In this document: positions 35,766 through 51,052 of the stretch, piece after piece
Layout of the letters: each line of letters starts with the position of its first letter
How positions within the stretch are numbered: the stretch's first letter is position 1
Assembly: GCF_001243045.1 (NCBI RefSeq)
Contig: NZ_LN849007.1
Location: 124,001-188,000, forward strand
DNA length: 64,000 nucleotides
Direction: 5' to 3'
Origin: Clostridium niameyense
GTDB taxonomy: Bacteria > Bacillota > Clostridia > Clostridiales > Clostridiaceae
Made by a program: the position numbers and the translations under genes
Notes under the pieces: generated by a model
Database searches by the model: none
What the model was told of the DNA's origin: nothing
What the model saw: only the letters and a program-made list of their open reading frames with translations

Positions 35766-35785
35766 TTGCCATATTATTATGGTAA
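35766..35785. promoter_or_regulatory. Putative operator, copy 1 (peptidase/PTS operon)
   Basis: TTGCCATATTATTATGGTAA has the form TTrCCATA-N4-TATGGTAA with near-perfect dyad symmetry. It is about 115 bases before the peptidase start. The same palindrome recurs at 40896, 40954 and 46642, all beside sugar-metabolism genes of this island. Confidence 0.65.
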
Positions 35786-35900
35786 TTTTTTTAAATAATG
35801 GGAACATTGAAAAGGTTTTATTTTACAAATATAATTAAAGGGTGAACTGAACAAAAATTTAATGGCCTCTTTAATCTTTAAGAGGAAGGAGAAGATAATT

Positions 35901-37295
35901 TTGCAAAATCATAATATTAAACGTCTAATAAAAGAAAAAGAAGAAGATATAAAAAATGATATAAGTGAATTAGTCAAGATACCTTCTATTAGAGATTTAA
36001 ATACAAAATCTTATAATGCACCTTTTGGCTTAGACATAAGAAATGCATTTGATAAATTTATTGAATTTGGTAATAGAGATAATTTCAAAGTGGAAGATTT
36101 TGATGGGTATGCAATTCATCTTGAATGTGGAGAAGGAAGTGAAATTATAGGAATACTTGGACATTTAGATGTAGTTCCTATATTTGATAAAGAAGAATGG
36201 GATACAGATCCTTTCCAATTGGTAGAAAGAAGTGGATATATTTATGGAAGGGGTGTAAACGATGACAAGGGCCCTTTAGTGGCAGCGTTATATGCTTTGA
36301 AAATTATTAAGGAGTTAGATATAAAATTTAAAAGAAGAGTTAGATTAATAATTGGTGGAGCAGAAGAGACTACATGGGAATGTATGGAGCATTACTTTTC
36401 AAAAAATCCCCAACCTAAATATGGATTCTCTCCCGATGGAGACTTTCCAATAGTAAATGGAGAAAAAGGCATATTTTATTATAGTTTTAAATCTTTTAAG
36501 AATACGGACTTATATGGAATACATAATCTTATAGATATAAAAACAAACAATAAACAAGGATTTGTTTGTGATTACTGTAAAGTAAGCTTTTTAACTAACA
36601 ATGCTTTAGAACTTAGAGAATATCTTAAAGAAGCGGATTATATTAGAGTAAAAGAAAGAGAAGTAACTGCTATATACAGTGGAAAAAATTCATTATCTAG
36701 GAATCCACATAAAGGTATAAATGCTTTATTTAAGTTTGGAAGAGATTTAAATAGAATAAAGAATTTAAATAATAAGGGTAAAAGTTTAGCAAAGTTGTTA
36801 GATGAATATTTTATTGATTCTATATATGGGGAAAAGGTAGGATTACAAAAAGAAGATTCAGAAATGGGAAGTACTACAATGTGTTTAATGGATATATATT
36901 ACAGTGACACTGATTTTGAAATTAAATTTGATTTTAGATATCCAAAGAATATAAAAAAAGAATTTATAAAAAGAAGATTTGAAGAAATAGCAACAATAAA
37001 TAATTTAAAATTAAGTACTGATAAAGAGTTAGATTTTATTTATGTTGATGAAAACAGTGAATTGATTAAAAGTTTAAAAAAAGCTTATGAAAACGTTATA
37101 GGGGAAGAGCCAAGTTTATTTTCAAAGGGAGCAGCTTCCTATGCAAGGGTTTTAAATGAGGGTGTAGCTTTTGGACCAACAATGCCAGGGGATACTCCTA
37201 ATTCTCATAAATCTAATGAAAATATTAAATTAGAAACACTATATAAAGCTATAGAAATATATTGTCAATCTATATACTTATTAGCATGTAAATAA
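35901..37295 (+). CDS. M20-family dipeptidase, PepV-like
   Basis: About 464 residues, the usual PepV length. Metal-ligand motifs: LGHLDVVP (His), YGRGVNDDKGP (Asp), GGAEETTWECMEHY (catalytic Glu pair), SPDGDFP, and a C-terminal GDTPNSHKSNENI (His). It is a cytoplasmic zinc peptidase for dipeptides. ATG at 35862 is in frame, but AGGAAGGAGAAG stands just before TTG 35901, giving the family length, so TTG is preferred. It lies 20 bases upstream of a PTS permease, an unusual pairing. It is divergent in sequence from the second PepV at 51192, so this is not a recent duplication. Confidence 0.88.
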   Translation: MQNHNIKRLIKEKEEDIKNDISELVKIPSIRDLNTKSYNAPFGLDIRNAFDKFIEFGNRDNFKVEDFDGYAIHLECGEGSEIIGILGHLDVVPIFDKEEWDTDPFQLVERSGYIYGRGVNDDKGPLVAALYALKIIKELDIKFKRRVRLIIGGAEETTWECMEHYFSKNPQPKYGFSPDGDFPIVNGEKGIFYYSFKSFKNTDLYGIHNLIDIKTNNKQGFVCDYCKVSFLTNNALELREYLKEADYIRVKEREVTAIYSGKNSLSRNPHKGINALFKFGRDLNRIKNLNNKGKSLAKLLDEYFIDSIYGEKVGLQKEDSEMGSTTMCLMDIYYSDTDFEIKFDFRYPKNIKKEFIKRRFEEIATINNLKLSTDKELDFIYVDENSELIKSLKKAYENVIGEEPSLFSKGAASYARVLNEGVAFGPTMPGDTPNSHKSNENIKLETLYKAIEIYCQSIYLLACK

Positions 37296-37315
37296 CTTAA
37301 GAGGAGGATTATATT

Positions 37316-38965
37316 ATGAAAGATAAGTTGCAAGTTATTGCAGGGGCAATGATGATACCAGTTATATTATTGGTTGTAGCAGGGGTGTTTATAGGACTAG
37401 GGGCAGCATTTGTAAATCCAGAAAATGTACAAGCACTTGGATTAGCCTCAGTTATATATAAGGGAGGCATCTTATATGCTTTCTTTAAAATAATAAATGA
37501 TTTGGGATTTATGGTAATGAGATTTTTGCCAATATTCTTCACAGTAGGAATAGCCTTTGGATTATCAAAGAAGGAAAAAGGTTGGGGAGCTTTAGGAGGA
37601 CTAGTTTTATTTATTGGTATGCATACAGTAATTAGTACTTTACTTGGTATTAGTGGATTAAATCCAGATACTACAACAGTAGATGCCTTTATAAAGGCAG
37701 GATTATCACAAGAAAAAGCAATGAATCAAAGTTCTTTATATACAACTTTCTTAGGAATATTTACGTTTGATTGTAGTATTTTTGGTGCGATAATATCAGG
37801 ATTTGTGGCAAGTATGGTTCACAATAAATATTGTGAAAAACAATTATGTAATGCATTATCATTCTTTGCAGGACCTAGATTTTCACAAATAATGATGTTT
37901 GTTGTAGCTATACCATTAGGAATAGCTATGTATTTAGTATGGCCATTTCTTGGAGCAGGATTATCTGCCGTAGGTATGTTTATAGGTAAGAGTGGATTGT
38001 TTGGAACATTTATTTTTGGAGCTTTAGATAAAACATTATTACCTTTTGGAATACACCATTTAATTGCATTTCCAATTGAATATACTAGTGTAGGTGGAGT
38101 TATGAAGATTGGTGGACATGTTTATGAAGGTGTTAATAACATAAAGATGGCTCAAATGGGAGATCCAAATAGCTTGGGGTATATAACTCGTAACTTTACA
38201 ACAGGACGTTTATTAATTCATTTTGCTATATTGCCTGCAGCAGCTTTAGCTATGTATAGAACAGCTAAACCTGAAAATAAAAAGAAAGCAGCAAGTATTT
38301 TGGTACCGGCAATAATAACAGCTATGTTAGTTGGAATTACTGAACCTATAGAATATACTTTCTTATTTGTAGCCCCTATGGTATATTTTTTAATATATGT
38401 ACCATTATCAGGATTAACATATGTTTTAACAGAGGCATTTAATGTTTCAATTATGGGGGAGGCTTTTAGAAATATGTTCCCTAATCTTTTACAACCGCAA
38501 AAAGTACATGCTTGGCCATTAGTATTTTTAATACCAATATTCTTTGTAGTAGTTTATTTTATATTCAAGTTTGTAATTGAAAAATTTGATTTAAAAACAC
38601 CAGGTCGTGGAGATATAAAAGAAGTTAAGTTATATTCAAAAAAGGAGTATAGAGATAAAGAAAACAAAAATCATTCAAATGATAAAAAAGCAGGTAATAA
38701 AGATAAAAATGACAGTGAATTAGGATTAATTTTAGGAATTGTAGATGCCTTGGGCGGAGTTGATAATATAGAAAATTTAACAAATTGTGCAACTAGATTA
38801 AGAGTAGAATTAAAAGATGTGGAAAAATCCGCTGTAGATGATATATGGGTTAATGAATTAGATGCCAGCGGAGTTGTTAGAAGGAAGAAATCTTTACAAA
38901 TTATATATGGTCCTAGAGTTATAACTTTAGTATCTAAGATAAAATCACACTTTAATATGGACTAA
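37316..38965 (+). CDS. PTS EIIBC permease, glucose/maltose family
   Basis: 549 residues. The N-terminal EIIC domain has about ten membrane segments and the family motifs FGLSKKEKGWGALGGLVLF, FGIHHLIAFP and GITEPIEYTFLFVAP. After a lysine/asparagine-rich linker (residues 440-465) the EIIB domain carries the phosphorylation site in NLTNCATRLRVELKD, Cys491. It takes up a sugar and phosphorylates it. The family includes glucose, GlcNAc, maltose and related permeases, and substrate cannot be read from sequence. No EIIA domain is fused; the separate EIIA gene at 39049 presumably serves it. GAGGAGGAT precedes the ATG. Confidence 0.93.
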   Translation: MKDKLQVIAGAMMIPVILLVVAGVFIGLGAAFVNPENVQALGLASVIYKGGILYAFFKIINDLGFMVMRFLPIFFTVGIAFGLSKKEKGWGALGGLVLFIGMHTVISTLLGISGLNPDTTTVDAFIKAGLSQEKAMNQSSLYTTFLGIFTFDCSIFGAIISGFVASMVHNKYCEKQLCNALSFFAGPRFSQIMMFVVAIPLGIAMYLVWPFLGAGLSAVGMFIGKSGLFGTFIFGALDKTLLPFGIHHLIAFPIEYTSVGGVMKIGGHVYEGVNNIKMAQMGDPNSLGYITRNFTTGRLLIHFAILPAAALAMYRTAKPENKKKAASILVPAIITAMLVGITEPIEYTFLFVAPMVYFLIYVPLSGLTYVLTEAFNVSIMGEAFRNMFPNLLQPQKVHAWPLVFLIPIFFVVVYFIFKFVIEKFDLKTPGRGDIKEVKLYSKKEYRDKENKNHSNDKKAGNKDKNDSELGLILGIVDALGGVDNIENLTNCATRLRVELKDVEKSAVDDIWVNELDASGVVRRKKSLQIIYGPRVITLVSKIKSHFNMD

Positions 38966-39001
38966 ATAATACTTTACTATAAGTTATTGAGAGAATAAAC
39001 T

Positions 39002-39034
39002 AAAAAATCATCAGCTTAGCTGATGATTTTTTTA
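39002..39034. terminator. Bidirectional terminator between PTS genes
   Basis: AAAAAATCATCAGCTTAGCT begins a symmetric hairpin completed by GATGATTTTTTT, with A-run and T-run on opposite sides. It can end both the EIIBC transcript and the convergent EIIA transcript. Confidence 0.9.
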
Positions 39035-39048
39035 TTTAAGTAATAAAA

Positions 39049-39528
39049 TTATTTTATTTTATAACTTATTACAGAAGTTTCTCCTGCTACTGTTTTTGTA
39101 TTTAATACAGGAGTTATTGATTTTAATTTTTCTACATTAGTGATTAATATAGGGGTAGATAAACAATATCCTTTAGATGTTATAAAGTCTCTGTCTATTT
39201 CAATAATTGGTGTTCCAGCTTTTACTTTTTTACCAGGTTCTATAAGTCTTTTAAAGCCCTTACCTTCTAATTCTACTGTATCAACACCTATATGTACTAA
39301 TATTTCAATACCATTGTCTAAAGTCAATGCATAAGCATGATTAGTATTAAATATAAATGTAAGTTCTCCGTCTGCAGGAGCTACAAAAGTATTACCGGTA
39401 GTGTCTATAGCAACACCATCTCCTGACATTTTTTGAGCAAATACCGGATCAGGCATTTGAGATAAATCAAATGTTACACCATCGGTAGGAGATAATAATT
39501 CTAAATTTTTCTTTAAAAAATTAAACAT
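39049..39528 (-). CDS. PTS EIIA, glucose type (Crr-like)
   Basis: 159 residues, the size of a free EIIA-Glc. Histidines 64 (NTNHAYAL) and 79 (ILVHIGVDTVEL) form the family active site, His79 being the phosphorylated one. GDGVAI and FVAPADGEL are also conserved. It takes phosphate from HPr and passes it to the EIIB domain of the permease at 37316. It is 52 bases downstream of the PPi-PFK gene on the same strand, so these two are probably one transcript. Confidence 0.94.
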   Translation of the reverse strand: MFNFLKKNLELLSPTDGVTFDLSQMPDPVFAQKMSGDGVAIDTTGNTFVAPADGELTFIFNTNHAYALTLDNGIEILVHIGVDTVELEGKGFKRLIEPGKKVKAGTPIIEIDRDFITSKGYCLSTPILITNVEKLKSITPVLNTKTVAGETSVISYKIK

Positions 39529-39580
39529 AATTTTATTTAAGCCTCTACAAAAGAAACTTAAAATTCACATCCTTTCCATA

Positions 39581-40804
39581 TTAAAATTTATTATAAATAT
39601 TAGAATAGTAAGGTATCCCATTTATATATTTTAAATCTATATTTCCTTTAGTCAAAGGTAAAATATAGTTAAAGGCATCTTCCGTTACATTGTTTCCCTC
39701 TGAATTAATCCATTTTTCAGGAAAATACTTAGTTTTATTTGCTATGTTAGACAAATCCTCATATCCAATGGAGCTTTTATAGTTGTCATTATTAATTCTA
39801 GAAATTGAGGACATAACTCCTGTACAGTTATTTTTAGATAGTTCAATACCATAGGCACCTACATTATAAGCTTCCTGCAGATCTGTTTTAGATACGCAAT
39901 GCATTGAGCATCTTTGAATAATTCCTAATTCTAAAATTTTAACTCTTGATGTAATTTTCGACTGTATGATTAAATCTTTTAATACCTTTGATGCTCCACC
40001 TAATTGTTTATGAGAAAATTTATCATGAGATAAACCTATTGTTTCTGATATAAAGTTTCCATAACTATCTTTGATACCTTCAGAAACAACAATAAAAACA
40101 TGTTTCTTTTTTTTATATAAATTTTCTACATCTTTTAAAAAGTTTTCTTTGCTAAATGCTATTTCAGGTAAATAAATAAAATCTACTACTGATTTATCAT
40201 TTAATTTAGCTAGAGTAGCAGAGGCAGCTAGCCATCCTGTATCTCTACCCATAGTTTCTAATATAAAAATACCATTATCTATATAAACAGAAGTATCTAA
40301 AAATGTTTCTAATGTTATAGTAGAAATGAGTTTTGCTGCAGAACCAAAACCTGGACAATGATCTGTACCTAAAAGATCATTATCAATGGTTTTAGGAATA
40401 CCTATAAACTTAATATTATCATGTGTTTTCTTTATATATTGAGAAAATTTTAGTATGGTATCCATAGAATCATTTCCACCTATGTAAAAAAAGGTATCAA
40501 TATTATATTTTTTCAATATTGATAATACTTTTTTATAATCACTATCATCTTGGTTAAAATCACATAATTTATATCTACAAGAGCCTAACCCAGAGGAGGG
40601 AGTAAGCTTTAAATTTAAAATTTTAGATTTAGAAATGCAGTCTGTATCTAATATATTTTCGTTTAAAATTCCTTCAATTCCATTAATGCTAAAGTAAACT
40701 TTATCAAAATATTTATCTTTCATATTTTTTTCATATATTCCAACTACAGATGAATTAATTACTGCTGTAGGACCTCCTGATTGAGCAATGATACAATTTC
40801 TCAT
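39581..40804 (-). CDS. Pyrophosphate-type 6-phosphofructokinase
   Basis: 407 residues. The N-terminus AQSGGPTAVINSSVVGIYE and the motifs YIGGNDSMDT and GIPKTIDNDLLGTDHCPGFG define the PPi-PFK branch: non-glycine after GGN in place of GGDGS, and lysine in PKTIDND, where ATP enzymes such as the one at 20707 have glycine. METMGRDTGW-like LETMGRDTGWLAASATLA follows. Such enzymes interconvert fructose 6-phosphate and the 1,6-bisphosphate reversibly, and several also act on sedoheptulose 7-phosphate. That side activity would fit the transketolase, transaldolase and epimerase genes nearby. Divergent from the epimerase gene across two putative operators. Confidence 0.9.
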   Translation of the reverse strand: MRNCIIAQSGGPTAVINSSVVGIYEKNMKDKYFDKVYFSINGIEGILNENILDTDCISKSKILNLKLTPSSGLGSCRYKLCDFNQDDSDYKKVLSILKKYNIDTFFYIGGNDSMDTILKFSQYIKKTHDNIKFIGIPKTIDNDLLGTDHCPGFGSAAKLISTITLETFLDTSVYIDNGIFILETMGRDTGWLAASATLAKLNDKSVVDFIYLPEIAFSKENFLKDVENLYKKKKHVFIVVSEGIKDSYGNFISETIGLSHDKFSHKQLGGASKVLKDLIIQSKITSRVKILELGIIQRCSMHCVSKTDLQEAYNVGAYGIELSKNNCTGVMSSISRINNDNYKSSIGYEDLSNIANKTKYFPEKWINSEGNNVTEDAFNYILPLTKGNIDLKYINGIPYYSNIYNKF

Positions 40805-40895
40805 TTAATCACTCCTTTATTTGTTGATAGTTGCTTTTAATTAAAATTATAAGTACAAAGCAACGGCAATTCAATAAATTAGAGAAGTACAATAA

Positions 40896-40915
40896 CTACC
40901 ATAAGAAAGTGGTAA
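40896..40915. promoter_or_regulatory. Putative operator, copy 2
   Basis: CTACCATA-AGAA-AGTGGTAA lies in the 292-base divergent region between the PPi-PFK gene (start 92 bases to the left) and the epimerase-like gene. It matches TTACCATA-N4-TATGGTAA at 13 of the 16 arm positions. Confidence 0.55.
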
Positions 40916-40953
40916 TTTATGAACTAACAATACTGTTATAAAATGTTCATTAA

Positions 40954-40973
40954 TTACCATAATATAAAGGTAA
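40954..40973. promoter_or_regulatory. Putative operator, copy 3
   Basis: TTACCATA-ATAT-AAAGGTAA, perfect left arm and two changes in the right arm. It is about 125 bases upstream of the epimerase-like gene. A lone half-site TTATGGTAG also occurs near 41060. Confidence 0.55.
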
Positions 40974-41096
40974 GTTTAAGATAGGGTTAAGCCATTGACT
41001 AGGGGGTTTTAGAGAGTGTAATATGAATTTATCGAGGTTAAATTCAGTTCATGAAATAATTATGGTAGTGTAAAAAGTTTTAAGGAGGAATAAAGT

Positions 41097-41813
41097 ATGA
41101 AACATATAAAAATAGCAGCAGGATTAGCACATGTTAATTATGGTAATATAGCAGCAGTAGTAAAGGAAGCAGTTGATGCCGGTGCAGATTATGTACATTC
41201 AGATGCTGCAGATATGTATGATTTAAGAAATATGCAACTTATGGGAGGGCATCAAATAATAGAAGGAATTAGACCTATAACAGATAAGCCTATAGAATGT
41301 CATATATATACGAGAGAATGTGATAGATTATTTATTGAAAAACTAGCTAAGGTTGGTTGTAATATGCTTATAATACCAGCAGAACAATTCTTAGGTGCCC
41401 CACTTGCTTATATTATAAATTATTGTAGGGAGTTTGGAATAAAAGTAGGTTTAACAATAGGATGTTACACACCTTTATGTTTTGTGGAAGAAGCAATATA
41501 TGATATTGATAGATTGCATCTTGTTGTTCATGGAGTAGATGAAACAGACGGACAAGAAAATTGGGGTTGGAGAAGAAGTGCTATCGATATGATAAAAAGA
41601 GCAAGGAAAATGATAGATGAAAAAAATCCAAAGTGTGAATTAGCAATTGATGGAGGAATACGTGCTAATAATTTAGAAAAATTAATAGAATGTAATCCAG
41701 ATGTAGTTGTTCTTTCATCAGCTATATTTAGAAACGAAAAGGGTATTGCTGGCGGAGTTAATGAATGCAGAGAAGCAATAGATAAAGCAGCTGAGAAGTT
41801 TAATTTAAAATAA
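41097..41813 (+). CDS. Ribulose-phosphate 3-epimerase-like enzyme
   Basis: 238 residues, a TIM barrel of the ribulose-phosphate-binding superfamily. Metal-ligand positions of Rpe appear retained: His34 and Asp36 in YVHSDAADM, His69 in IECHIYTRE, and the Asp of LAIDGGIRANN. Other signatures differ: the usual SILSADF near the N-terminus is GLAHVNYG, and the VNPGFGGQ loop is replaced by VHGVDETDGQENWGW. It may epimerise ribulose 5-phosphate or a related ketose phosphate such as allulose 6-phosphate. AAGGAGGAA precedes the ATG, and a strong terminator follows, so it is monocistronic. Confidence 0.8.
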   Translation: MKHIKIAAGLAHVNYGNIAAVVKEAVDAGADYVHSDAADMYDLRNMQLMGGHQIIEGIRPITDKPIECHIYTRECDRLFIEKLAKVGCNMLIIPAEQFLGAPLAYIINYCREFGIKVGLTIGCYTPLCFVEEAIYDIDRLHLVVHGVDETDGQENWGWRRSAIDMIKRARKMIDEKNPKCELAIDGGIRANNLEKLIECNPDVVVLSSAIFRNEKGIAGGVNECREAIDKAAEKFNLK

Positions 41814-41820
41814 TTGTTTT

Positions 41821-41856
41821 AAAAATCTCTCATTAATTAATGAGAGATTTTTATAT
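41821..41856 (+). terminator. Terminator after the epimerase-like gene
   Basis: AAAAATCTCTCATTAATTAA begins a perfect symmetric hairpin closed by TGAGAGATTTTT. It ends the monocistronic epimerase-like transcript. Confidence 0.9.
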
Positions 41857-41880
41857 TAAGGTTAGTTAAGGAGTATAAAT

Positions 41881-42471
41881 ATGAAAAATAATGAACTGAT
41901 TAAGGACTATATTTTAATTACTATATCAAGTATATTAATGGCTATTGCTGTAAATATGTTTTTTAAGGAGCATATGCTTGCACCTGGAGGAATAACTGGA
42001 TTAGCTATAATATCAAGTAAATTTTTTGGCTTTCCTGTAGAGTATATGACGTTAGGAATATCAGGACCATTATTAATAATGGGGATATTATTTTTAGGAA
42101 AAAGTTTTGGTATAAAAACTTTATATATAACCATAATGGGGCCTATTTTTTTAAAGTTAATACCTCAAGTTCATATCACAAATAATTTATTTATGGCAGC
42201 TCTTTTAGGAGGGGTATTAGTAGGACTAGCTATTGGTATAGCTATAGTAAGGGATTGCACAACAGGTGGAACAGATCTTGCGGCTATGCTTATAAATAAG
42301 ATTATAAAATTTATAAAGATGCCTATAATATTATTTATATTAGATGGTAGTATAGTTATAGGATCAGGAATTATCAGCAAAAATTATATGATATCAATTT
42401 ATTCATTAATTTCATTATTTATAATAATAAATACTATAAATCTTATAGTAAATAGATATAGAAAAAAATAG
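41881..42471 (+). CDS. YitT/DUF161-type membrane protein, short form
   Basis: 196 residues with five to six hydrophobic segments. Family motifs: NMFFKEHMLAPGGITGLAII near the N-terminus and CTTGGTDLAAMLINK in the middle. Typical YitT proteins add a C-terminal DUF2179 cytoplasmic domain of about 80 residues that is absent here; this protein stops after the membrane part (VNRYRKK). The function of the family is unknown. AAGGAGTATAAAT precedes the ATG. Confidence 0.85.
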   Translation: MKNNELIKDYILITISSILMAIAVNMFFKEHMLAPGGITGLAIISSKFFGFPVEYMTLGISGPLLIMGILFLGKSFGIKTLYITIMGPIFLKLIPQVHITNNLFMAALLGGVLVGLAIGIAIVRDCTTGGTDLAAMLINKIIKFIKMPIILFILDGSIVIGSGIISKNYMISIYSLISLFIIINTINLIVNRYRKK

Positions 42472-42495
42472 AAAATAAGTTGTTATTTACGAAAA

Positions 42496-42537
42496 AAGTA
42501 TTATGTATTATTAGTTTACTAATAATACATAATACTT
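42496..42537. terminator. Bidirectional terminator with a 19-pair perfect stem
   Basis: AAGTATTATGTATTATTAG (42496-42514) and CTAATAATACATAATACTT (42519-42537) are exact complements around TTTA. The convergent location between the YitT-like gene and the PRD regulator gene supports a bidirectional terminator. Confidence 0.85.
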
Positions 42538-42554
42538 CGTATAATATTTTAATT

Positions 42555-44108
42555 TTACAGTCCACATTTTAATGATAAACTATTTTTTTCTACATATAAA
42601 TTTTTTATTATTAAGTTTAATCTAAGAATATCTTGTTTTCGGAGAAGGGGGGGGACTATAATAACCTTTTTATCTAAATCTAATGGAACTGTAGATATAA
42701 TTAAATCAATATCTTTTAAATCCTCATCAGTGATAAAAGTAGAAGACTTCATATTTTTTAGTTCGATTAAATTAAACTCCTGTTTTAATTTAGTCGTAAG
42801 TAGATTGGAAGCACCAATACCACAATGACATATAACAAGCGTTCTAAGAGGCTGTTTTATTCTATCTATTGCGTTGGCTAAGTGAAGAGTAAGATAGCCT
42901 ATTTCATTTTCGTCAATGTCACAAGATAAAAACTTTGAGAATATATATGAAGAATTTTTAACAATATTATAGGTTTTGGGATATAAGCTTTTTATATCAT
43001 TCAACAATGGATTATTTAAATTTAATCCATATTTAATACGTGTTATAGTAGGCTGTAAATGTGAAATTAGAGAATTTTGCAGTTTATAATCATTTTTCAG
43101 ACAAATGTTTAAAGAGTTGCCCCAAAAATCTATTAATTCATTACATATGGGTAAAACTTCTACATTATTTGATTCTATTGAATTGTTAGTTTCCACATTA
43201 TTTTTTTTGGTAGAACCCTTTCTACAAGCAAAAATATGTACTAATAAATATCCTATTTCTTGGTCAGAGAATTTAATATTATAATAATCCTCTAATTTTC
43301 TACAAAGTTCTTCTGATATAATAAATTCTTTTAATGATTTTAGTTGTGATAAGAATGAATCTGATAATATTACATATTTATTAGAAGAAATTCTTTTTAT
43401 AGTTATTGAAATATGAATGAGTAAGGATAGTAAGGATTCATCGGATAGATTATATTGAATAAAGGAGTTTAGGGATAAAACTATCTTTTGTAACATTTTA
43501 AAATCTATGTCAATGAGTCTTTTTAAAGTTTTTAATGATTTTGTATCAATTTCAGAATCCTCACAGTCCATTAAATTTTTTAGCTGAGAGTAAGTTTTAT
43601 TTAAATGAATTAAAGAATAAATAGCTTTTCTATAATTTCTTTCCTTGCCTTGTATTTCAAGTCCGCGATTGGTTTTTCTTATGAGTTTAATTTTATATTT
43701 ATTAAGCCAATCTGATACAAATATTAGGTCTTTATGTATAGTTGCACGACTAACATAGAGAGCTTGTGAAAGCTCTCTAATTCTAATATTATATTCACAG
43801 GTGAATAATTGTTCTAAGATATAAATCCTTCTATCTTCAGGTGAGAAACACTCAACTACGTTTACTCTTTCTATTATATCATTTAAAACACTAAGCTTTA
43901 GTTTTTCATCACCTTGTATAGCAATCCCAACACCTGTTTTCTTATCGAGGGTTAGGTCAAATTCATTCATCCATTTTTCAATTATTGTAAGATCATTTCT
44001 TATAGTTTTATTACAAAAACTTAAGCTTTTAGAAATTGATTCTACAGTTATGTATTTATTTTCCCTTAAAAGAATTTCACATATTGACACTAACCTTTTA
44101 TTTATCAT
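42555..44108 (-). CDS. PRD-containing transcriptional regulator with EIIB-like domain
   Basis: 517 residues. Domains in order: two helix-turn-helix modules (ITVESISKSLSFCNKTIRND and IRELSQALYVSRATIHKD), PRD1 (about 185-290) with SLLIHISITIKR, PRD2 (about 310-420) with EIGYLTLHLANAIDR, and an EIIB(Gat)-like domain with the phosphoacceptor cysteine in VICHCGIGASNLLTTKL. The EIIA domain that ends many MtlR/LicR-type regulators is missing. Such proteins respond to PTS phosphorylation and usually activate sugar operons. It is the last gene of the tktN-tktC-tal transcript and is the natural candidate to bind the palindromes of this island. Confidence 0.9.
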   Translation of the reverse strand: MINKRLVSICEILLRENKYITVESISKSLSFCNKTIRNDLTIIEKWMNEFDLTLDKKTGVGIAIQGDEKLKLSVLNDIIERVNVVECFSPEDRRIYILEQLFTCEYNIRIRELSQALYVSRATIHKDLIFVSDWLNKYKIKLIRKTNRGLEIQGKERNYRKAIYSLIHLNKTYSQLKNLMDCEDSEIDTKSLKTLKRLIDIDFKMLQKIVLSLNSFIQYNLSDESLLSLLIHISITIKRISSNKYVILSDSFLSQLKSLKEFIISEELCRKLEDYYNIKFSDQEIGYLLVHIFACRKGSTKKNNVETNNSIESNNVEVLPICNELIDFWGNSLNICLKNDYKLQNSLISHLQPTITRIKYGLNLNNPLLNDIKSLYPKTYNIVKNSSYIFSKFLSCDIDENEIGYLTLHLANAIDRIKQPLRTLVICHCGIGASNLLTTKLKQEFNLIELKNMKSSTFITDEDLKDIDLIISTVPLDLDKKVIIVPPLLRKQDILRLNLIIKNLYVEKNSLSLKCGL

Positions 44109-44124
44109 AATTTCCTCCTAATTT

Positions 44125-44772
44125 TTATTTAATATTACATAAGTTTTGCCAGTCTTCTATAAACTTTTTCTCACCTTGTGCCGTCAACTCATGAAAAATA
44201 GCTTGTTTTAATGTGGAATGGTTTACAGCAGAATAGTGTGCACCAGCTAAAGCAGCTTCTTGCAAATGATATACATTTTTAATAGATGCAGCTACAACTT
44301 CAGTACTATAATTGTTTTCTTTAATTATAGTACATATATTGTTAAGAGTTTCTAATCCACTAACACCAATTGCATCATTTCTACCTATGAATGGGAATAT
44401 ATAATCAGCTCCGGCATTTATAGCTAGAGTTGCTTGGGTTATATTAAATATTAAAGTAACAGCTGTTTTAATTCCTTTTTTACTTAATATATTAACTAAC
44501 TTAAGGCCTAAAGAAGAAAAATTAATTTTTATTATAATATTAGGATTAATAGATAATATACCATCTACATTATTTAGCATTTCTTCTAAAGATGATCCCA
44601 TAGCTTCAGCAGATAAAAAATTAGGATTTAGTGAATTTACTTCTCTTAAAAAATCATAAAATTTAATTTGTTCTTTTAAATACATAGAAGGATTAGCTGT
44701 AACACCATAAATTCCTAAAGATAAGGCTTCCTTTATTTCATTTAAGTTAGCAGTATCTATTATATATTTCAT
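44125..44772 (-). CDS. Transaldolase, TalC/Fsa-like
   Basis: 215 residues, the short single-barrel type. MKYIIDTANLNEIKEALSLG, GVTANPSM, the Schiff-base lysine in IIIKINFS, TLIFNITQATLAINAGADY and ISPFIGR-like IFPFIGRNDAIG are all family features. It moves a dihydroxyacetone unit between sedoheptulose 7-phosphate and glyceraldehyde 3-phosphate, or acts as a fructose 6-phosphate aldolase; the two cannot be told apart here. A TTG at 44787 is in frame, but GGGGG lies just before ATG 44772. It lies between transketolase and the PRD regulator in one minus-strand operon. Confidence 0.9.
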   Translation of the reverse strand: MKYIIDTANLNEIKEALSLGIYGVTANPSMYLKEQIKFYDFLREVNSLNPNFLSAEAMGSSLEEMLNNVDGILSINPNIIIKINFSSLGLKLVNILSKKGIKTAVTLIFNITQATLAINAGADYIFPFIGRNDAIGVSGLETLNNICTIIKENNYSTEVVAASIKNVYHLQEAALAGAHYSAVNHSTLKQAIFHELTAQGEKKFIEDWQNLCNIK

Positions 44773-44787
44773 AATATTCGCCCCCAA

Positions 44788-45714
44788 TTATAAATTATAT
44801 TTAACTGTATTAACTATATGTTCAACAGATAAGCCGTATTTTTTTATAAGAGCATCTGGTTTACCACTTTCTCCAAATGTATCATTAATTCCTACCATAG
44901 CTAACTTAACAGGTTCATATTGACTAAGAACTTCACTTACAGCAGAACCTAATCCACCTATAACGTTATGTTCTTCACAAGTAACTATTAGTTTACTTTT
45001 TTTAGCTAAATTTATTATCAGTTCCTTATCTATAGGTTTAATGGTATGAATGTTTACTACATATGCATTTATTTCTTGTTTTCTAAGAACATGACTGGCT
45101 TTTAGAGCTTGTTGAACCATAAAGCCAGTAGCAATAATAGCAACATCATCTCCTTCTTCTAGTATGACACCTTTACCTAGTTCAAAGGAATAATTTTTTG
45201 AATTTATAGTTTCAACTGCAAGTCTTCCAAGTCTTACATAACAAGGACCGTCATATTTTGCAACGGCTTTAATGACAGCTTCAGTTTCTACACTATCACA
45301 AGGGGAGATAACAGTCATATTTGGAAGACTTCTCATAATAGCTAAATCTTCTATGGCTTGATGTGATGCACCATCTTCTCCTACAGTTATTCCAGCATGG
45401 GTGGCACATATTTTAACATTTAATCTTGGATAGCATATGGAGTTTCTTATTTGCTCAAAAGCTCTTCCGGCTGCAAATATTGCAAAAGTACTAGCAAATA
45501 CCGTATTTCCACAGGTAGATAGCCCTGCAGCTATAGACATCATATTTCCTTCTGCTATACCAATATTAATATGCTTGGCAGGATTAGCTTTCTTTGCTTC
45601 ACAAGTTTTAGTTGATTTAGAAAGATCGGCATCTAAAACTATTATATGATCATCTTCTTTTACCAATTGAGCTAGAGTATTTCCATAGGCTTCTCTTGTT
45701 GCTATTTTACTCAT
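44788..45714 (-). CDS. Transketolase, C-terminal subunit
   Basis: 308 residues covering the pyrimidine-binding and C-terminal domains of transketolase: GIAEGNMMSIAAGLSTCGNT with the catalytic glutamate, FASTFAIFAAGRAFEQIRNS, CATHAGITVGEDGASHQAIED, and a C-terminal VTCEEHNVIGGLGSAVSEVL. It needs the N-terminal partner encoded immediately upstream. Splitting of transketolase into two subunits is common in clostridia and archaea. Its ATG overlaps the partner's stop by one base (TAATG), so the two are translated in step. Confidence 0.94.
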   Translation of the reverse strand: MSKIATREAYGNTLAQLVKEDDHIIVLDADLSKSTKTCEAKKANPAKHINIGIAEGNMMSIAAGLSTCGNTVFASTFAIFAAGRAFEQIRNSICYPRLNVKICATHAGITVGEDGASHQAIEDLAIMRSLPNMTVISPCDSVETEAVIKAVAKYDGPCYVRLGRLAVETINSKNYSFELGKGVILEEGDDVAIIATGFMVQQALKASHVLRKQEINAYVVNIHTIKPIDKELIINLAKKSKLIVTCEEHNVIGGLGSAVSEVLSQYEPVKLAMVGINDTFGESGKPDALIKKYGLSVEHIVNTVKYNL

Positions 45715-46532
45715 TACTTAATACCTCCTAATTCTTTGAGAGCTAATTCACATTGTTCTTTGGATGGAGCATTACCATGCCATTCAGGTCGATTTTCCAT
45801 AAAAGATATACCTTTTCCTTTTATAGTTTTAGCAATTATAACAGTTGGCATTTCTTTGGTATTTTTAGCAATTTTATATGCATTTATAAGTTCTTCAAAG
45901 TTATGTCCATCTACTGTTATAACATTCCAACCAAAAGCTTCAAATTTTTTATCAATAGGAGTAGGATTCATAACATTAGTTATTTCCCCATCTATTTGTA
46001 AACCGTTAAAATCAATAATGGCAAGAAGATTATCTAATTTATAATGAGTAGCTGTCATAGCCGCTTCCCACACTTGTCCTTCTTCAAGTTCTCCGTCTCC
46101 TAAAAGAGTATATACTCTATATTTATCGTTATGTATTTTATAAGATAAAGCCATTCCAACTGCAGTGGAAATTCCTTGACCTAAGGAGCCAGTAGACATA
46201 TCAATGCTTGGTATATAATTCATATTAGGGTGTCCTTGAAGTTTAGAATTGATTTTTCTAAATGATCCCAATTCATTTTTATCTATAAACCCTTTTTCAG
46301 ATAGTACTGAGTATAGAAGCGGGGATGCATGTCCCTTTGACAGTACAAACTTATCTCTAGATTTATCATATATGTTTTCCTTATTAATATTCATTTCATT
46401 AAAGTATAGAGAAGTTAATATTTCTACAGCAGAAAGTGAACCACCTGGGTGACCTGAGGATGCCTCAGTAATAATTTTTATTATATTTTTTCTTATTTCT
46501 GTAGCTTTTTTATTTAAAAAATCTATATCCAA
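45714..46532 (-). CDS. Transketolase, N-terminal (thiamine-binding) subunit
   Basis: 272 residues. Thiamine diphosphate and metal motifs: SSGHPGGSLSAVEIL, FVLSKGHASPLLYSVL, DMSTGSLGQGISTAVGMALS and GDGELEEGQVWEAAMTATHY with IDFNGLQIDG. With the C-terminal subunit it transfers two-carbon units among pentose, heptose and hexose phosphates. It is the first gene of the operon tktN-tktC-tal-PRD regulator, with a putative operator about 110 bases upstream. GGAGG precedes the start (minus strand). Confidence 0.95.
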   Translation of the reverse strand: MDIDFLNKKATEIRKNIIKIITEASSGHPGGSLSAVEILTSLYFNEMNINKENIYDKSRDKFVLSKGHASPLLYSVLSEKGFIDKNELGSFRKINSKLQGHPNMNYIPSIDMSTGSLGQGISTAVGMALSYKIHNDKYRVYTLLGDGELEEGQVWEAAMTATHYKLDNLLAIIDFNGLQIDGEITNVMNPTPIDKKFEAFGWNVITVDGHNFEELINAYKIAKNTKEMPTVIIAKTIKGKGISFMENRPEWHGNAPSKEQCELALKELGGIK

Positions 46533-46641
46533 TAGAGAAACCTCCTTGTATTTTAAGTTTAAAAAAGTTTAAGCATAGTTATTTAAAATTTATTATACAC
46601 TAGAAATTAATTAAATTTACTAACTTAAAACTTTAATTAAA

Positions 46642-46661
46642 TTACCATATTGTTATGGTAT
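46642..46661. promoter_or_regulatory. Putative operator, copy 4
   Basis: TTACCATA-TTGT-TATGGTAT, one base from a perfect palindrome. It lies in the 299-base divergent region between the transketolase operon and the iron alcohol dehydrogenase gene, so it could serve both. The rest of this region is A+T-rich with no ORF. Confidence 0.65.
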
Positions 46662-46831
46662 AAAATGACTAATTATTTAAAAGTATTGTTTAATTTTTTC
46701 CATAAGCTTTAGTTAATTTTTGTTACTAATAATAGTATTGAACATAAAAATCTAAAAACCTATAATTTTAATTAATAAAATAAAGTTTAGGTATAGAATT
46801 ATAAATATTATTTAAATAGGAGGAATAATAT

Positions 46832-47983
46832 ATGTTTAATTATTATCAACCATCAAGAATTCATTTTGGAATAGGGAAATTAAAAGAATTAGGTGAGGTT
46901 GCTGCAAAGTATGGTAAAAAATGTTTACTTGTAACAACTCCTAACGAGACACCTTTAGACAAGCTATATACAAGAGTAAAAGAAATTTTAAGTAATGAAA
47001 ATATAGAAGTTATACATTTTGATAAGGTACTTTCTAATCCAACCATTGAAATTGTTAATGAAGGATTTAAAATAGCAAAAAGAGAAGATTTTGATTTTGT
47101 TTTAGCAGTTGGTGGAGGATCAAGTATAGATACAGGTAAAATTATTGCTTTAACTAATGGTTTAGAGAGTATAGATTGGGAAAGATTATTTTCAGATTAT
47201 ACAAGTCCTTTTATAAAGTATGATAGTTTAAGTGAAAAAGGTTTACCTTTGATAGCAGTTTCAACTACATCAGGAACAGGAAGTCAAGTAACTCAAGCTT
47301 CAGTAATATCTATAGGAAAGAATAAAAATACAATTTTTCATCCAGATAATTTTTCTAAAGAGTGCATTGTAGATCCAGAACTTATGAAAACACTTCCACC
47401 TAGAATAACTGCGTCTACTGGATTTGACGCTTTTACCCATGCCTTTGAAAGTTATATAAATAAAAATTCTTCAGTTATTACAGAAATTCAATCATTAAAA
47501 GCTATGGAGTTAGTAATAAATAATTTACAAGGTGCTTTTGATCAAGGAGAAAATATAAAATATAGGGAAAATTTAGCTATTGCTGATACTTTGGCAGGTA
47601 GTAGTTTAGCTAATGTAGGGGCAGCGGCACCACATCCACTATCTGAGATAATAGGAGGAATTATTAATATACCTCACGGGGAAGCTTTAGCTGTGATATT
47701 TCCCGCATTTGTAAAAAAATATTATATAAGTTATATTAATAAATTTGCAACGGTAGCTAGGTTATTTAATAATGATTTAAATAATGAAGAAGATGAGAAG
47801 GCAGCAGGGGAACTATATAATGAGTTAAATAAATTCTTAAGTAAATTAGGATTAAAAAAGAGATTAAGAGATTTTAATGTTTCAAAGGAACAATTACAAG
47901 AAGTTTTAGAATCACCAATATTAGGATTCTTACCTTTTGGAACTAAAGAAGAACTTCAAGAGATAATTAAACAATCATATTAA
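46832..47983 (+). CDS. Iron-containing alcohol dehydrogenase
   Basis: 383 residues. The nucleotide-binding motif is AVGGGSSIDTGKIIAL, followed by STTSGTGSQVTQASVIS. Metal ligands are supplied by ASTGFDAFTHAFESYI (Asp and His), GAAAPHPLSEIIGG and NIPHGEALAVIFP. The group III family includes butanol, propanediol and lactaldehyde dehydrogenases. The substrate here is open; it could reoxidise NADH during sugar fermentation. It is divergent from the transketolase operon with a shared palindrome between. AGGAGGAA precedes the ATG. Confidence 0.92.
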   Translation: MFNYYQPSRIHFGIGKLKELGEVAAKYGKKCLLVTTPNETPLDKLYTRVKEILSNENIEVIHFDKVLSNPTIEIVNEGFKIAKREDFDFVLAVGGGSSIDTGKIIALTNGLESIDWERLFSDYTSPFIKYDSLSEKGLPLIAVSTTSGTGSQVTQASVISIGKNKNTIFHPDNFSKECIVDPELMKTLPPRITASTGFDAFTHAFESYINKNSSVITEIQSLKAMELVINNLQGAFDQGENIKYRENLAIADTLAGSSLANVGAAAPHPLSEIIGGIINIPHGEALAVIFPAFVKKYYISYINKFATVARLFNNDLNNEEDEKAAGELYNELNKFLSKLGLKKRLRDFNVSKEQLQEVLESPILGFLPFGTKEELQEIIKQSY

Positions 47984-49334: not shown

Positions 49335-49580
49335 ATTAATACAAAGAAGAGGAATAGTAAAAACCTAAACTTTTAACAGAAAGGGATAGTTGATGAGAAA
49401 TCCTAAAAGATAAGTTTTGAACCAGCCTTGGAGTACTGTACTGAAATATTAGTAGGATACAGCGGAGATATTTCCGTTAAAAAATTCAAGTTGAATATGT
49501 CTTTTAAGACATATTAACAAGGGTGGTACCGCCGATAACAACTTCGGTCCCTATTTAGGGATTCGAGGTTTTTTATTTTT
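49335..49580 (+). promoter_or_regulatory. T-box leader of proS, specifier CCA
   Basis: The T-box sequence AAGGGTGGTACCGCC starts at 49519. It is followed by a terminator whose arms run from AACTTCGGTCCCTA to TAGGGATTCGAGGTT and end in a T-run (about 49540-49577). In Stem I the segment GAA-CCA-GCCTTGGAG (from 49419) places CCA, a proline codon, in the specifier position at 49422-49424. Uncharged tRNA-Pro would pair there and with the TGGT bulge, favouring the antiterminator. The specifier agrees with the proline tRNA ligase gene downstream. Confidence 0.92.
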
Positions 49581-49615: not shown

Positions 49616-51052
49616 ATGGCAAAAGACAAGAAATTTGTTGAAGACATAACTCCAATGGATGAGGACTTTGCACAATGGTATACAGACATAGTAAAAAAAG
49701 CAGAGCTTGCAGATTATTCAAGTGTAAGAGGTTGTATGATTATACGTCCTTATGCTTATGCTATGTGGGAAATGATTCAAAAGGACTTAGATAAAAGATT
49801 TAAAGATACAGGACATCAAAATGTTTATATGCCAGTATTTATACCAGAGAGTTTATTAAATAAAGAAAAAGAACATATAGAGGGATTTGCACCAGAAGTT
49901 GCGTGGGTAACTCATGGTGGGGAAGAAAAACTTACAGAAAGATTATGTGTAAGACCTACATCAGAAACTTTATTTTGTGAACACTATGCTAAAATAGTTC
50001 AATCCTATAAAGATTTACCTAAACTTTATAATCAATGGTGTTCAGTAGTAAGATGGGAAAAGACTACAAGACCATTTTTAAGAACTACAGAATTTTTATG
50101 GCAAGAAGGTCATACTATTCATGCTACAGAACAAGATGCTAGACATGAAACAGAACAAATGTTAAATATATATGCAAAACATGTTGAAGAAGTGCTAGCT
50201 ATACCTGTAATTAAGGGGCAAAAAACAGAAAAGGAAAAATTTGCAGGAGCAAAAGCAACCTATACAATAGAAAGTTTAATGCATGATGGAAAGGCACTTC
50301 AAACAGGAACATCTCATTATTTAGGAGATCATTTTGCTAAAGCCTTTGGTATACAATATTCAGATAAAGAAGGAAAACTTCAAAATGTTCATCAAACTTC
50401 TTGGGGTGTAACAACAAGAATGTTGGGAGCAATAATAATGGTACACGGAGATGATAGTGGTTTAGTAGTTCCTCCAAGAATAGCACCAATTCAAGTAGTT
50501 ATAGTACCAGTGGCTCAACATAAAGAAGGAGTTTTAGATAAAGCTAATGAGTTAAAAGAGAGAATATCTAAAATTGCAAGAGTTAAACTTGATGATACTG
50601 ATAAGATGCCAGGTTGGAAATTTAATGAATACGAAATGAAGGGTGTTCCTATTCGTTTAGAAGTAGGACCAAAGGATATAGAGAAGAATCAAGTGGTATT
50701 AGTTAGAAGAGATAGTAGAGAAAAAATAATAGTACCTATGGATGAGTTAGAAGTACAAATTCCTAAATTACTAGATGAAATTCATAATTCAATGTATGAA
50801 AAAGCTAAGAAAAGAATGGAACAAAAGACTAATATAGCTAAAGATCTTGACGAATTTAAAGAAATAGTTGAAAGTAAAGGCGGATTTATAAAGGCTATGT
50901 GGTGCGGTGATAAGGAATGTGAAGAAAAGATTAAAGAAGTAACAGGAGCTACTTCAAGATGTATACCATTTGAACAAGAAGAAATTTCAGATACATGTGT
51001 ATGTTGTGGAAAGAAAGCTAAGAAAATGGTATTCTGGGGAAAAGCATATTAA
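49616..51052 (+). CDS. proS: Prolyl-tRNA synthetase, archaeal/eukaryote-type
   Basis: 478 residues, class II synthetase. Motifs: [18 protein letters not shown] (motif 1 region), [17 protein letters not shown] and [20 protein letters not shown] (motif 2), and GATKATYTIE-like [20 protein letters not shown] with [17 protein letters not shown] (motif 3). No INS editing insertion lies between motifs 2 and 3, and a C-terminal zinc-binding tail ([11 protein letters not shown], then [18 protein letters not shown]) is present. That makes it the shorter, archaeal/eukaryote-like form also found in clostridia. It is controlled by the T-box upstream and ends with a strong terminator. Confidence 0.96.

Follow-up and report, generated by a model that had tools for sequence, protein, structure and literature searches.

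The window analysed here is a 64,000-nucleotide stretch of Clostridium niameyense DNA, which carries a sugar island composed of the following genes:

35862..37295, plus strand: M20 dipeptidase-like gene (family match; true start probably the TTG at 35901, judging from orthologues)
37316..38965, plus strand: PTS EIIBC, glucose/maltose family (family match)
39049..39528, minus strand: PTS EIIA, glucose family (family match)
39581..40804, minus strand: PPi-dependent phosphofructokinase (PRK14072, above cut-off)
41097..41813, plus strand: ribulose-phosphate 3-epimerase-family protein (family match)
41881..42471, plus strand: YitT-family membrane protein (family match)
42555..44108, minus strand: regulator with two N-terminal HTH modules, PRD1, PRD2 and an EIIB-like C-terminus, no EIIA domain
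44125..44787, minus strand: transaldolase/fructose-6-phosphate aldolase family (family match)
44788..45714, minus strand: transketolase C-terminal half (label of the earlier note, and sequence)
45714..46532, minus strand: transketolase N-terminal half (label of the earlier note, and sequence)
46832..47983, plus strand: iron-dependent alcohol dehydrogenase (family match)

The transketolase N-terminal half opens an operon that the regulator gene closes. With respect to the substrate of the island, a psicose/allulose lead yielded nothing useful in the papers listed for it. The intergenic regions contain copies of a palindrome with the core TTnCCA-N8-TGGnAA, which we treat as candidate operators, together with predicted promoters:

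35766..35785, plus strand: operator 1 (TTGCCATATTATTATGGTAA), M20/EIIBC promoter; pattern and matrices, 21 bp upstream of TTGAAA
40896..40915, minus strand: operator 2, PFK-EIIA promoter; pattern and matrices
40954..40973, plus strand: operator 3, epimerase promoter; pattern and matrices
46642..46661, minus strand: operator 4, transketolase-transaldolase-regulator promoter; pattern and matrices
46697..46716, plus strand: operator 5, weak (TTTCCATAAGCTTTAGTTAA), alcohol dehydrogenase promoter; matrix including window sites, and spacing
35807..35835, plus strand: predicted M20-EIIBC promoter, TTGAAA (35807-35812), 17 bp, TATAAT (35830-35835)
40846..40874, minus strand: predicted PFK-EIIA promoter, TTGAAT (40869-40874), 17 bp, TATAAT (40846-40851)
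40995..41024, plus strand: predicted epimerase promoter, TTGACT (40995-41000), TAATAT (41019-41024)
46592..46620, minus strand: predicted transketolase-transaldolase-regulator operon promoter, GTAAAT (46615-46620), 17 bp, TATAAT (46592-46597)
46738..46766, plus strand: predicted alcohol dehydrogenase promoter, TTGAAC (46738-46743), 17 bp, TATAAT (46761-46766)

The earlier note had reported the first four palindromes, and we recovered each at the same position, with 1 (35766), 3 (40896), 2 (40954) and 1 (46642) mismatches to TTACCATA-N4-TATGGTAA. Allowing up to 3 mismatches, the palindrome occurs 6 times in the window compared to a mean of 1.44 in dinucleotide shuffles, 1 of 100 of which reached 6. 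The 2 extra matches, at 27577 and 55422, are both located beyond the island and have 3 mismatches apiece; an independent matrix gives each less than 13 bits. It was derived from 19 listed sites in other genomes, any repeated sequence being entered a single time, and the window contributed none. This matrix placed the four sites at ranks 1-4 of the 64 kb, at 24.8, 23.5, 21.5 and 20.7 bits; the fifth-ranked match (15.4 bits) falls within a coding region, and 60 Markov-shuffled windows gave a mean of 0 matches of at least 20 bits. Operator 5, which the earlier note had missed, scored 14.5 bits with a matrix that included window sites and below 13 bits with the independent matrix, and thus was not found by the latter. 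The alcohol dehydrogenase promoters of L002, L003, L004, L005, L006, L009, L011 and L134 have corresponding sites.

All 5 operators of the window lie 21 bp upstream of a -35 position of a predicted sigma-A promoter, so that a palindromic operator sits just upstream of each -35. At the epimerase promoter the spacing test scored an alternative -10 (TGTAAT, 41017-41022), and the promoter of the regulator operon is uncertain because its GTAAAT at the -35 position is very weak and thus too poor. Across 26 sites from six lineages (one genome per lineage), TTG was found at a gap of 21 in 20 sites, compared to 0-2 sites at any other gap between 14 and 29. Of 39 matches to the matrix that includes window sites, four (window 39642, L002 169, L003 3358 and L005 1143) had been dropped before their own spacing test because they were coding or not at an island promoter; in the list of 26 sites L004 12947 was omitted, L006 10636 was replaced by 10595, and L011 9621 by 9550. 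Without the three sites that were added knowing the promoter pattern or a homologue (L004 13043, L011 9550 and L006 10595), the count was 17 of 23. This constant gap to the -35 suggests an activator geometry.

The regulator itself is an MtlR/LicR-like protein by its domain content. HTH_11 and Mga HTH matches cover its N-terminus, followed by two PRD stretches (PF00874, E 4e-38) and an EIIB-like part whose PTS_IIB match (20.5 bits) falls below the curated 23.6. In the listed portion of an alignment of nine group-A regulators the PRD2 His is invariant and the PRD1 His residues vary; the Cys-His pair of the EIIB-like part is likewise invariant in the listed portion of the group-A sequences. At 517 aa, the protein stops after the EIIB-like part and lacks a C-terminal EIIA-like domain, for which reason we class it as MtlR-like rather than as MtlR. 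Relatives L104, L105 and L107 (652-661 aa) extend past this point, while others, such as L136 and L137, also stop there. We rejected a reading as a BglG/LicT RNA antiterminator: Pfam found HTH matches instead of a CAT domain, and Rfam found no RAT hairpin. Rfam found no RNA in the island; its sole match up to E 0.1 between 30000 and 50000 is a T-box at 49335-49555.

No relatives came from pattern scans that used just the regulator or just the window epimerase. They were instead obtained with an epimerase alignment that included a Photobacterium relative, for which the best 80 of 96 matches were retained; in viral contigs this alignment gave no match. Sampling showed further orthologues to be rare. 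The query's own genome was the sole match in the Kineothrix family (397 genomes), the Neobacillus family (193) and the Neobacillus order (397), and the class of C. cadaveris (391 genomes) gave C. cadaveris itself plus one 38% match in a 660-aa frame that looks like a longer paralogue. Matches were present in 12 of 206 Clostridiaceae genomes, at 44-50% for G001, G002 and G006 and at 37-42% for the other 9 and for two further G001 copies, while 4 of 71 genomes of the Clostridioides family, two of them new, carry the epimerase.

The earlier note had inferred a self-contained regulon and had made conservation upstream of orthologous genes one of its tests. The motif is in fact retained there in seven further island loci of Clostridium, Kineothrix, Clostridioides, Youngiibacter and Neobacillus, and all 8 group-A loci have sites at island promoters. 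Beyond the founder loci, 23 loci have a PRD homologue by tblastn (at least 80 bits), and 17 of them carry the operator; of 51 loci lacking such a homologue, 0 carry it. By itself, the bare palindrome was rejected as a genome-wide signal since it occurs at background level: with up to 2 mismatches its count was at or below that of a reversed-pattern control in 8 of 9 genomes (G009 alone exceeded it), and the relaxed core was likewise near background. In contrast, the palindrome placed 21 bp from a sigma-A-type promoter gave 14 matches in 7 genomes, where the reversed control gave 0; islands contain 7 of these matches, among them all 4 with 0-1 mismatch. This fixed-spacing pattern overlooks the island promoters of G001 and G002 because their -35 to -10 spacers differ. 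The regulon is thus supported by conservation and by co-occurrence with PRD homologues, while its being self-contained is unproven, since paralogous PRD regulators in other Clostridiaceae have like operators.

These paralogues bear on whether another PRD protein could act at the island. In L105-L108 and L112, paralogous PRD regulators are preceded by operators of this type at a spacing of 20-21 bp, and C. cadaveris has an out-of-island site before a second transaldolase-family gene, itself located behind an EIIC-GAT permease. G001, the sister of C. cadaveris, has a near-identical candidate match. We consider it on balance unlikely that the sites are common to other PRD activators of the genome, which would make the island part of a larger PRD network and the regulon not a closed one; against this reading, the palindrome with 0 mismatches occurs once each in G001, G002 and G005 of the nine genomes, and every time within the island. 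The regulon reading, with the additions described above, is in our judgment well supported by the sequence comparisons, and the five promoters marked by the palindrome are probable targets of a single PTS-sensing activator.

A shorter string shared by two of the intergenic regions had been proposed as a possible second element. Both copies (TGAACTGAA at 35843 and TTCAGTTCA at 41043) are present, but they look like parts of complementary mRNA leaders instead: GAACTGAA and TTCAGTTC lie near the predicted starts of the PTS and epimerase messages, respectively. RNA duplex prediction and comparison across six lineages delimit the candidate pairing regions as follows:

35842..35869, plus strand: start of the PTS-message leader, with helix 1 strand 35842-35851 (GTGAACTGAA) and helix 2 strand 35863-35869 (TGGCCTC)
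41034..41052, plus strand: start of the epimerase-message leader, with helix 2 strand 41034-41040 (GAGGTTA) and helix 1 strand 41043-41052 (TTCAGTTCAT)

The two leaders are complementary in 9 of 9 genomes with a close orthologue of the island, while their sequence varies between lineages. Duplexes of 40-nt leaders gave z values of -2.9 to -6.0, and 0-2 of 400 double shuffles were equally good. In six of these genomes, one per lineage, the mean z was -4.8, and the epimerase leader was the strongest partner of the PTS leader in all 6. A map of 35-nt windows in the same six placed the signal at leader x leader (-4.3), with the remaining 24 cells between -1.5 (operator x operator) and +0.8. The window leaders self-fold at -5.7 and -5.1 kcal/mol compared to -18.8 for the duplex. 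The two genes are encoded on opposite strands in L011, where their leaders could pair solely in trans. A tenth genome, G221, stands outside this test; it has the epimerase leader, and no M20/EIIBC gene was found in the stretches examined. Conserved complementarity between two messages of linked function, a feature of mRNA-mRNA riboregulation, is therefore present.

We considered whether TGAACTGAA/TTCAGTTCA might instead be a second protein-binding DNA element, placed in opposite orientations near two starts with no RNA pairing, while the operator is that of this regulator. The strings are located at predicted start sites, and helix 1 falls into two sequence classes in which both sides have changed (TGAACTGAA-type and its complement; TTGAATTAA/TTAATTCAA in L004 or ATTGAATTA/TAATTCAAT in L009), as DNA and RNA readings would alike predict. 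Within a class, cross-genome pairs score well, as a shared binding site would: over all cross-genome PTS x epimerase pairs the mean z was -1.6 (n=30), and two outscored the native pair of that PTS leader (window PTS x L003 epimerase, -6.2 vs -4.4; L006 PTS x window epimerase, -5.4 vs -4.2). By raw 60-nt energy, the window epimerase leader is a better partner than their own for the L002 and L003 PTS leaders, and the L005 PTS leader does slightly better with the epimerase leader of either sister genome, L006 or L134. To a large extent, helix 1 is therefore common to several lineages and not specific to each. L005 has a changed base on the PTS side alone; both sisters retain the same TAAGTTCA. 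Helix 2, however, is more divergent than helix 1 yet complementary throughout, with lineage-specific examples such as TGCTTTGTAAA, GTTTCTTA and CTTCTCTA, and the gap between the helix 1 and helix 2 parts is unequal in the two leaders, neither of which is expected of a single conserved protein. Since the complementarity is moreover confined to leader x leader and absent from the promoters, we consider a second DNA element improbable.

Chance complementarity in A+T-rich sequence appears less probable still. Weak duplexes are frequent among such leaders, and the exact-match length test was weak (p ≤0.05 in 5 of 9 genomes; p = 0.45 in L002), and shuffling only one of the two 60-nt leaders gave similarly weak z values (-1.7 to -1.9 for the window, L002 and L004). 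Several unrelated pairs were also low in one or few genomes: at 40 nt, ADH-TAL in the window (-3.8), EPI-TAL in L009 (-3.6), PTS-TAL in L006 (-2.8), and ADH-EIIA (-2.2) and EIIA with itself (-4.0) in L011; at 60 nt, TAL-ADH in the window, L002 and L003 (-2.1 to -3.1), and in L009 the EPI-TAL energy was lower than that of PTS-EPI. Against chance, all nine genomes from six lineages agree, and no such signal appeared in control windows or in more distant islands, where none of the pairs at 17 loci with more distant PRD homologues fell below z -2.2 (120-nt windows and 60 shuffles, a test that differs from the 40-nt nine-genome one). Least credible is that the palindrome serves repression, whether by the PRD protein or by another factor: sites of unknown sign would be alike in sequence, but all 5 lie beyond the polymerase-blocking zone in constant helical phase, most relatives agree with the 21-bp geometry, and MtlR, whose domains follow the same order with EIIA added, acts as an activator in Bacillus (PMC3217849).

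As a joint explanation, a five-promoter PRD-activator regulon combined with trans-pairing PTS and epimerase leaders is, in our view, likely to be correct. We infer that the palindrome is the operator of the MtlR/LicR-type activator encoded at 42555-44108, serving the M20-EIIBC, PFK-EIIA, epimerase-YitT, transketolase-transaldolase-regulator and alcohol dehydrogenase promoters. A cognate PTS sugar would alter phosphorylation of the PRDs and the EIIB-like domain, whereupon the regulator would recruit RNA polymerase at all five; with its own operon among the targets, it would be positively autoregulated. The first ~30 nt of the M20-EIIBC and epimerase messages may then pair in trans by their 5' ends, which would make importer synthesis depend on whether the transcript of the enzyme proposed to remove the incoming sugar phosphate is present. 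In which direction this would act is a guess: the likeliest effect is shielding of the 5' ends from 5'-to-3' decay, which we favour by analogy to hly-prsA2 in Listeria, and the alternative is joint cleavage by RNase III. That the importer and enzyme mRNAs answer to one PRD activator and form a reciprocal 5' heteroduplex that stabilises or destroys the importer message is a proposal to which we give slightly better than even chances. If true, sugar-phosphate uptake would be matched to removal without a dedicated small RNA, and this logic would have persisted across six Firmicute lineages despite drift in the paired sequences.

With respect to known systems, ManR and MtlR both carry a C-terminal EIIA-like domain, which the island regulator lacks. 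In PMC3217849 this domain is described for MtlR, a PRD activator of mannitol genes; the paper also reports, 7 bp from the -35, a conserved block of 42 bp whose palindrome lies inside 11-bp flanks, and the palindrome-to--35 distance calculated from these figures is ~18 bp. MtlR of Bacillus subtilis and Geobacillus shares the order HTH-PRD1-PRD2-EIIB, a palindrome just upstream of a sigma-A -35, and an operator at the activator gene. It differs in its boxes, which an excerpt of PMC10992428 gives as TTGTCA...TGCCAA compared to the TTnCCA core here, and the island has 21 bp to the -35 at five promoters of a different pathway. The operator layer offers a regulon of five promoters that is open to testing and has a fixed activator geometry, for a PTS regulator class that often lacks assigned targets.

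The complementary leaders are the more novel part. If real, they would have few precedents as two ordinary-mRNA 5' ends that pair and are kept complementary across genera, and they would sit at a point where the cell has to balance uptake of a potentially toxic sugar phosphate against its use. In Listeria hly-prsA2, two protein-coding messages of linked function likewise pair in trans, and 5' UTR pairing guards against RNase J1, as summarised in part of a review (PMC8079631); that case concerns a single species and involves a 3' UTR and a 5' UTR, while the predicted pairing here joins two 5' ends of one regulon with complementarity kept across genera. The island pairing would tune a PTS importer to the capacity for sugar phosphate use, with the leader of a pathway mRNA as the partner. 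In enteric bacteria the same end is served by SgrS-ptsG, in which, in contrast, a dedicated small RNA with Hfq represses translation.

Four palindromes had been reported by an earlier note in intergenic regions of the sugar-use gene cluster (the island), and all four are present where it placed them, with 1, 3, 2 and 1 mismatches, respectively, to TTACCATA-N4-TATGGTAA. When the 64 kb were scanned with an independent matrix, built without any site of the window, these operators took ranks 1-4 at 20.7-24.8 bits. The next-best match (15.4 bits) fell in a coding region, and shuffled sequence yielded none at or above 20 bits. The finding is real. Two extra matches to the palindrome with 3 mismatches occur in the window, both outside the island. 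The features concerned are as follows.

35766-35785, operator 1
40896-40915, operator 2
40954-40973, operator 3
42555-44108, (-) strand, the PRD/EIIB regulator
46642-46661, operator 4
46697-46716, operator 5, at the alcohol dehydrogenase promoter (14.5 bits with the iterated matrix described below)

Single-protein scans for relatives of the island were unproductive. A search with an alignment of the epimerase and a 63% identical Photobacterium relative did better; the best 80 of 96 loci were kept, all from named genomes. Placing the window's proteins on these loci revealed that the island recurs in Clostridium cadaveris (L003) and its sister (L002), Kineothrix (L004), Youngiibacter (L009), the soil bacterium Neobacillus rhizosphaerae (L011) and two Clostridioides difficile genomes (L005, L006), with regulators 42-51% identical to that of the window. 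These seven loci and the window make up group A. Regulator orthologues are scarce and scattered among genomes, which suggests a mobile catabolic island. A sister island in the C. cadaveris relative (L137, G001 C87) is 53% identical in M20, 58% in EIIBC, 38% in PRD and 30% in transaldolase; its best intergenic operator match reaches only 14.0 bits.

Iterating the operator matrix over the eight group A loci gave 39 matches, 37 of them intergenic, and a conserved core of TTnCCA-N8-TGGnAA; in every locus the PTS promoter and the epimerase promoter each have a site. The exact palindrome precedes M20-EIIBC in C. cadaveris, its sister and one C. difficile genome (L006), with variants at other promoters. 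Operator 5, which scores below 13 bits with the independent matrix, has equivalents in relatives, where they too lie at the alcohol dehydrogenase promoter. We measured operator-promoter spacing on either side of 35 of the 39 matches (70 cases), counting promoter-like pairs with a score of at least 9. Such pairs were found 23 times at 21 bp, 6 times at 22 bp, 3 times at 20 bp and at most twice at any other distance. With one genome per lineage, 20 of 26 sites have TTG at exactly 21 bp from the palindrome, or 17 of 23 without three sites added with knowledge of promoter or homology; each of the remaining gaps between 14 and 29 bp accounts for 0-2 of the 26.

Predicted promoters of the window, each with its operator at 21 bp
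M20-EIIBC, TTGAAA-17-TATAAT
PFK-EIIA, TTGAAT-17-TATAAT
Epimerase, TTGACT with TAATAT
Transketolase operon, including the regulator, GTAAAT-17-TATAAT
Alcohol dehydrogenase, TTGAAC-17-TATAAT

A repressor site is expected to overlap the promoter; at 21 bp from the predicted -35 elements, the operators instead occupy the position of an activator site. Both in the window and in the relatives compared, the -35 element of the transaldolase/regulator operon is poor. This makes its promoter less certain, and is as expected for an activator-dependent, autoregulated promoter. The operator, its spacing, its conservation and its co-occurrence with the regulator can be read in the genomes compared; the regulator would bind at these operators and activate transcription from them.

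We likewise asked, in genomes of relatives, how specific the operator is. The palindrome taken alone is not: in 8 of 9 genomes, matches with up to 2 mismatches were no more frequent than those of the reversed pattern, and the relaxed core stayed close to background. Three of the 9 genomes have a single exact palindrome each, always inside the island. Operator and promoter at fixed spacing gave 14 matches in seven genomes versus 0 for the control, using a pattern that misses the island promoters of genomes G001 and G002, whose spacers differ. Half of the 14, including all 4 with 0-1 mismatch, lie in islands. Outside group A, 17 of the 23 loci that have a PRD homologue carry an intergenic operator of at least 16 bits, versus 0 of the 51 that lack one (443 kb at 38.6% G+C versus 888 kb at 40.9% G+C). 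The regulon reading of the earlier note holds in outline, though the regulon may not be self-contained: cross-talk is possible, since similar sites precede PRD paralogues in other Clostridiaceae. One operator outside the island, with a promoter at 21 bp, lies on the C. cadaveris chromosome (1068632; L135 1633-1652) before a second transaldolase-family gene, itself after an EIIC-GAT permease; the sister of C. cadaveris has a near-identical match.

A shorter shared string had been put forward as a possible second element. It is present in both leaders, and reads as complementary leaders: TGAACTGAA starts at the predicted 5' end of the M20-EIIBC message, and TTCAGTTCA sits ~13-22 nt inside the predicted epimerase message. 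We computed duplexes of the two leaders, each taken as the 40 nt that follow the -10 element, with 400 double shuffles, in nine genomes (group A and L134, a further Clostridioides-family genome). All nine gave -14.6 to -24.2 kcal/mol and z of -2.9 to -6.0, with 0-2 of 400 shuffles per genome as good as the native duplex. The mean z was -4.8 over six lineages, compared to -1.0 to +0.7 for every other pair class found in more than one genome, among which individual outliers exist. Cross-genome PTS x epimerase pairs averaged -1.6, and in 2 of 30 the PTS leader scored better than with its native partner. When 35-nt windows spanning -70 to +70 around the -10 element were mapped, -4.3 was reached solely at leader x leader; the next lowest value, -1.5, was operator x operator. 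Two weaker earlier tests gave p <=0.05 in 5 of 9 genomes (exact-match length) and z of -1.7 to -6.8 (60-nt leaders, one side shuffled). No leader pair fell below z -2.2 in the 17 islands whose regulators are more distant; in L037, the sole one viewed closely, the predicted leaders are only ~30 nt.

Two sequence classes of the first complementary stretch, helix 1, can be told apart, and they differ on both sides. The TGAACTGAA type occurs in the window, C. cadaveris and its sister, Clostridioides and Neobacillus, and the TTGAATTA type in Kineothrix (TTGAATTAA with TTAATTCAA) and Youngiibacter (ATTGAATTA with TAATTCAAT). One C. difficile locus, L005, has TGAACTTA against TAAGTTCA; this change is one-sided, because its sisters keep the epimerase stretch unchanged, paired with TGAACTGA. 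In the second stretch, after helix 1, the sequence differs per lineage and complementarity is kept (Clostridioides, TGCTTTGTAAA with TTTACAAAGCA; C. cadaveris, GTTTCTTA with TAAGAAAC; Neobacillus, CTTCTCTA with TAGAGAAG), some pairs extending a few bases 5' of the predicted start. In Neobacillus the genes lie on opposite strands, so that pairing is only possible in trans. The complementarity is a property of the sequences; the transcription start sites are predicted, in the window near 35841 and 41031, and the leader RNAs would pair, with a putative effect on the messages. In the window, the listed M20 start (ATG 35862) falls within the complementarity, and orthologues suggest that M20 starts at TTG 35901. 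By eye, M20 has no obvious ordinary start codon in C. cadaveris or its sister.

The island encodes a glucose-family EIIBC and EIIA, a PPi-PFK, a transaldolase-family gene, an iron alcohol dehydrogenase and genes labeled transketolase in the first reading of the sequence. The nearest PDB relatives of the epimerase are ribulose-phosphate 3-epimerases (best E 4e-21) and D-allulose-6-phosphate 3-epimerase. In a Photobacterium relative, epimerase and dehydrogenase also occur together, beside what by eye look like a transaldolase, a transketolase and a ribose-5-phosphate isomerase-like protein; this grouping points to a product that enters the pentose phosphates. Upstream of the epimerase-dehydrogenase pair, a Bacillus (L010 8555-9940, PF01212) and, by sequence likeness, Maribacter (L033 7358-8833) have a tryptophanase-like beta-eliminating lyase. 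Together with the M20 dipeptidase, this lyase hints at an imported substrate that may be a sugar conjugated to an amino acid or peptide. Elsewhere in the window are a second M20 dipeptidase-like gene (51192-52583, 31% identical to the island copy) and a T-box leader (49335-49555, RF00230, 118.7 bits) directly upstream of an ORF (49616-51052) that by eye resembles prolyl-tRNA synthetase. Two ORFs of 274 and 426 aa at 29447-31780 (-) look by eye like one molybdopterin aldehyde oxidase/xanthine dehydrogenase-type protein in two pieces, and may be a broken gene.

The regulator comprises two N-terminal HTH modules, two PRDs and a C-terminal EIIB-like domain (PTS_IIB at 20.5 bits, slightly below the cut-off; Cys-His invariant). 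In group A, one PRD2 His is invariant and the PRD1 His residues vary. Its PDB relatives are PRD antiterminators of the LicT/GlcT/BglG type and AcpB; among studied systems, MtlR of Bacillus comes closest. PMC3217849 places a conserved block of 42 bp at 7 bp from the -35 element, with the palindrome within 11-bp flanks and hence ~18 bp from the -35, and PMC10992428 gives the MtlR boxes as TTGTCA...TGCCAA. The island system is a relative of the MtlR system but has another core, a spacing of 21 bp and a regulator that lacks an EIIA domain. Among the matches listed, by title and abstract opening and mostly from outside the subscription journals, we recognised no report of paired 5' leaders or of the island regulator. 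The nearest precedent for pairing at the RNA level comes from Listeria: according to a review (PMC8079631), hly-prsA2 mRNA-mRNA pairing there protects a 5' UTR from RNase J1. Taken together, the island is a new PTS regulon of an already known kind, and the second element, if pairing is confirmed, would make it a variant within that kind.
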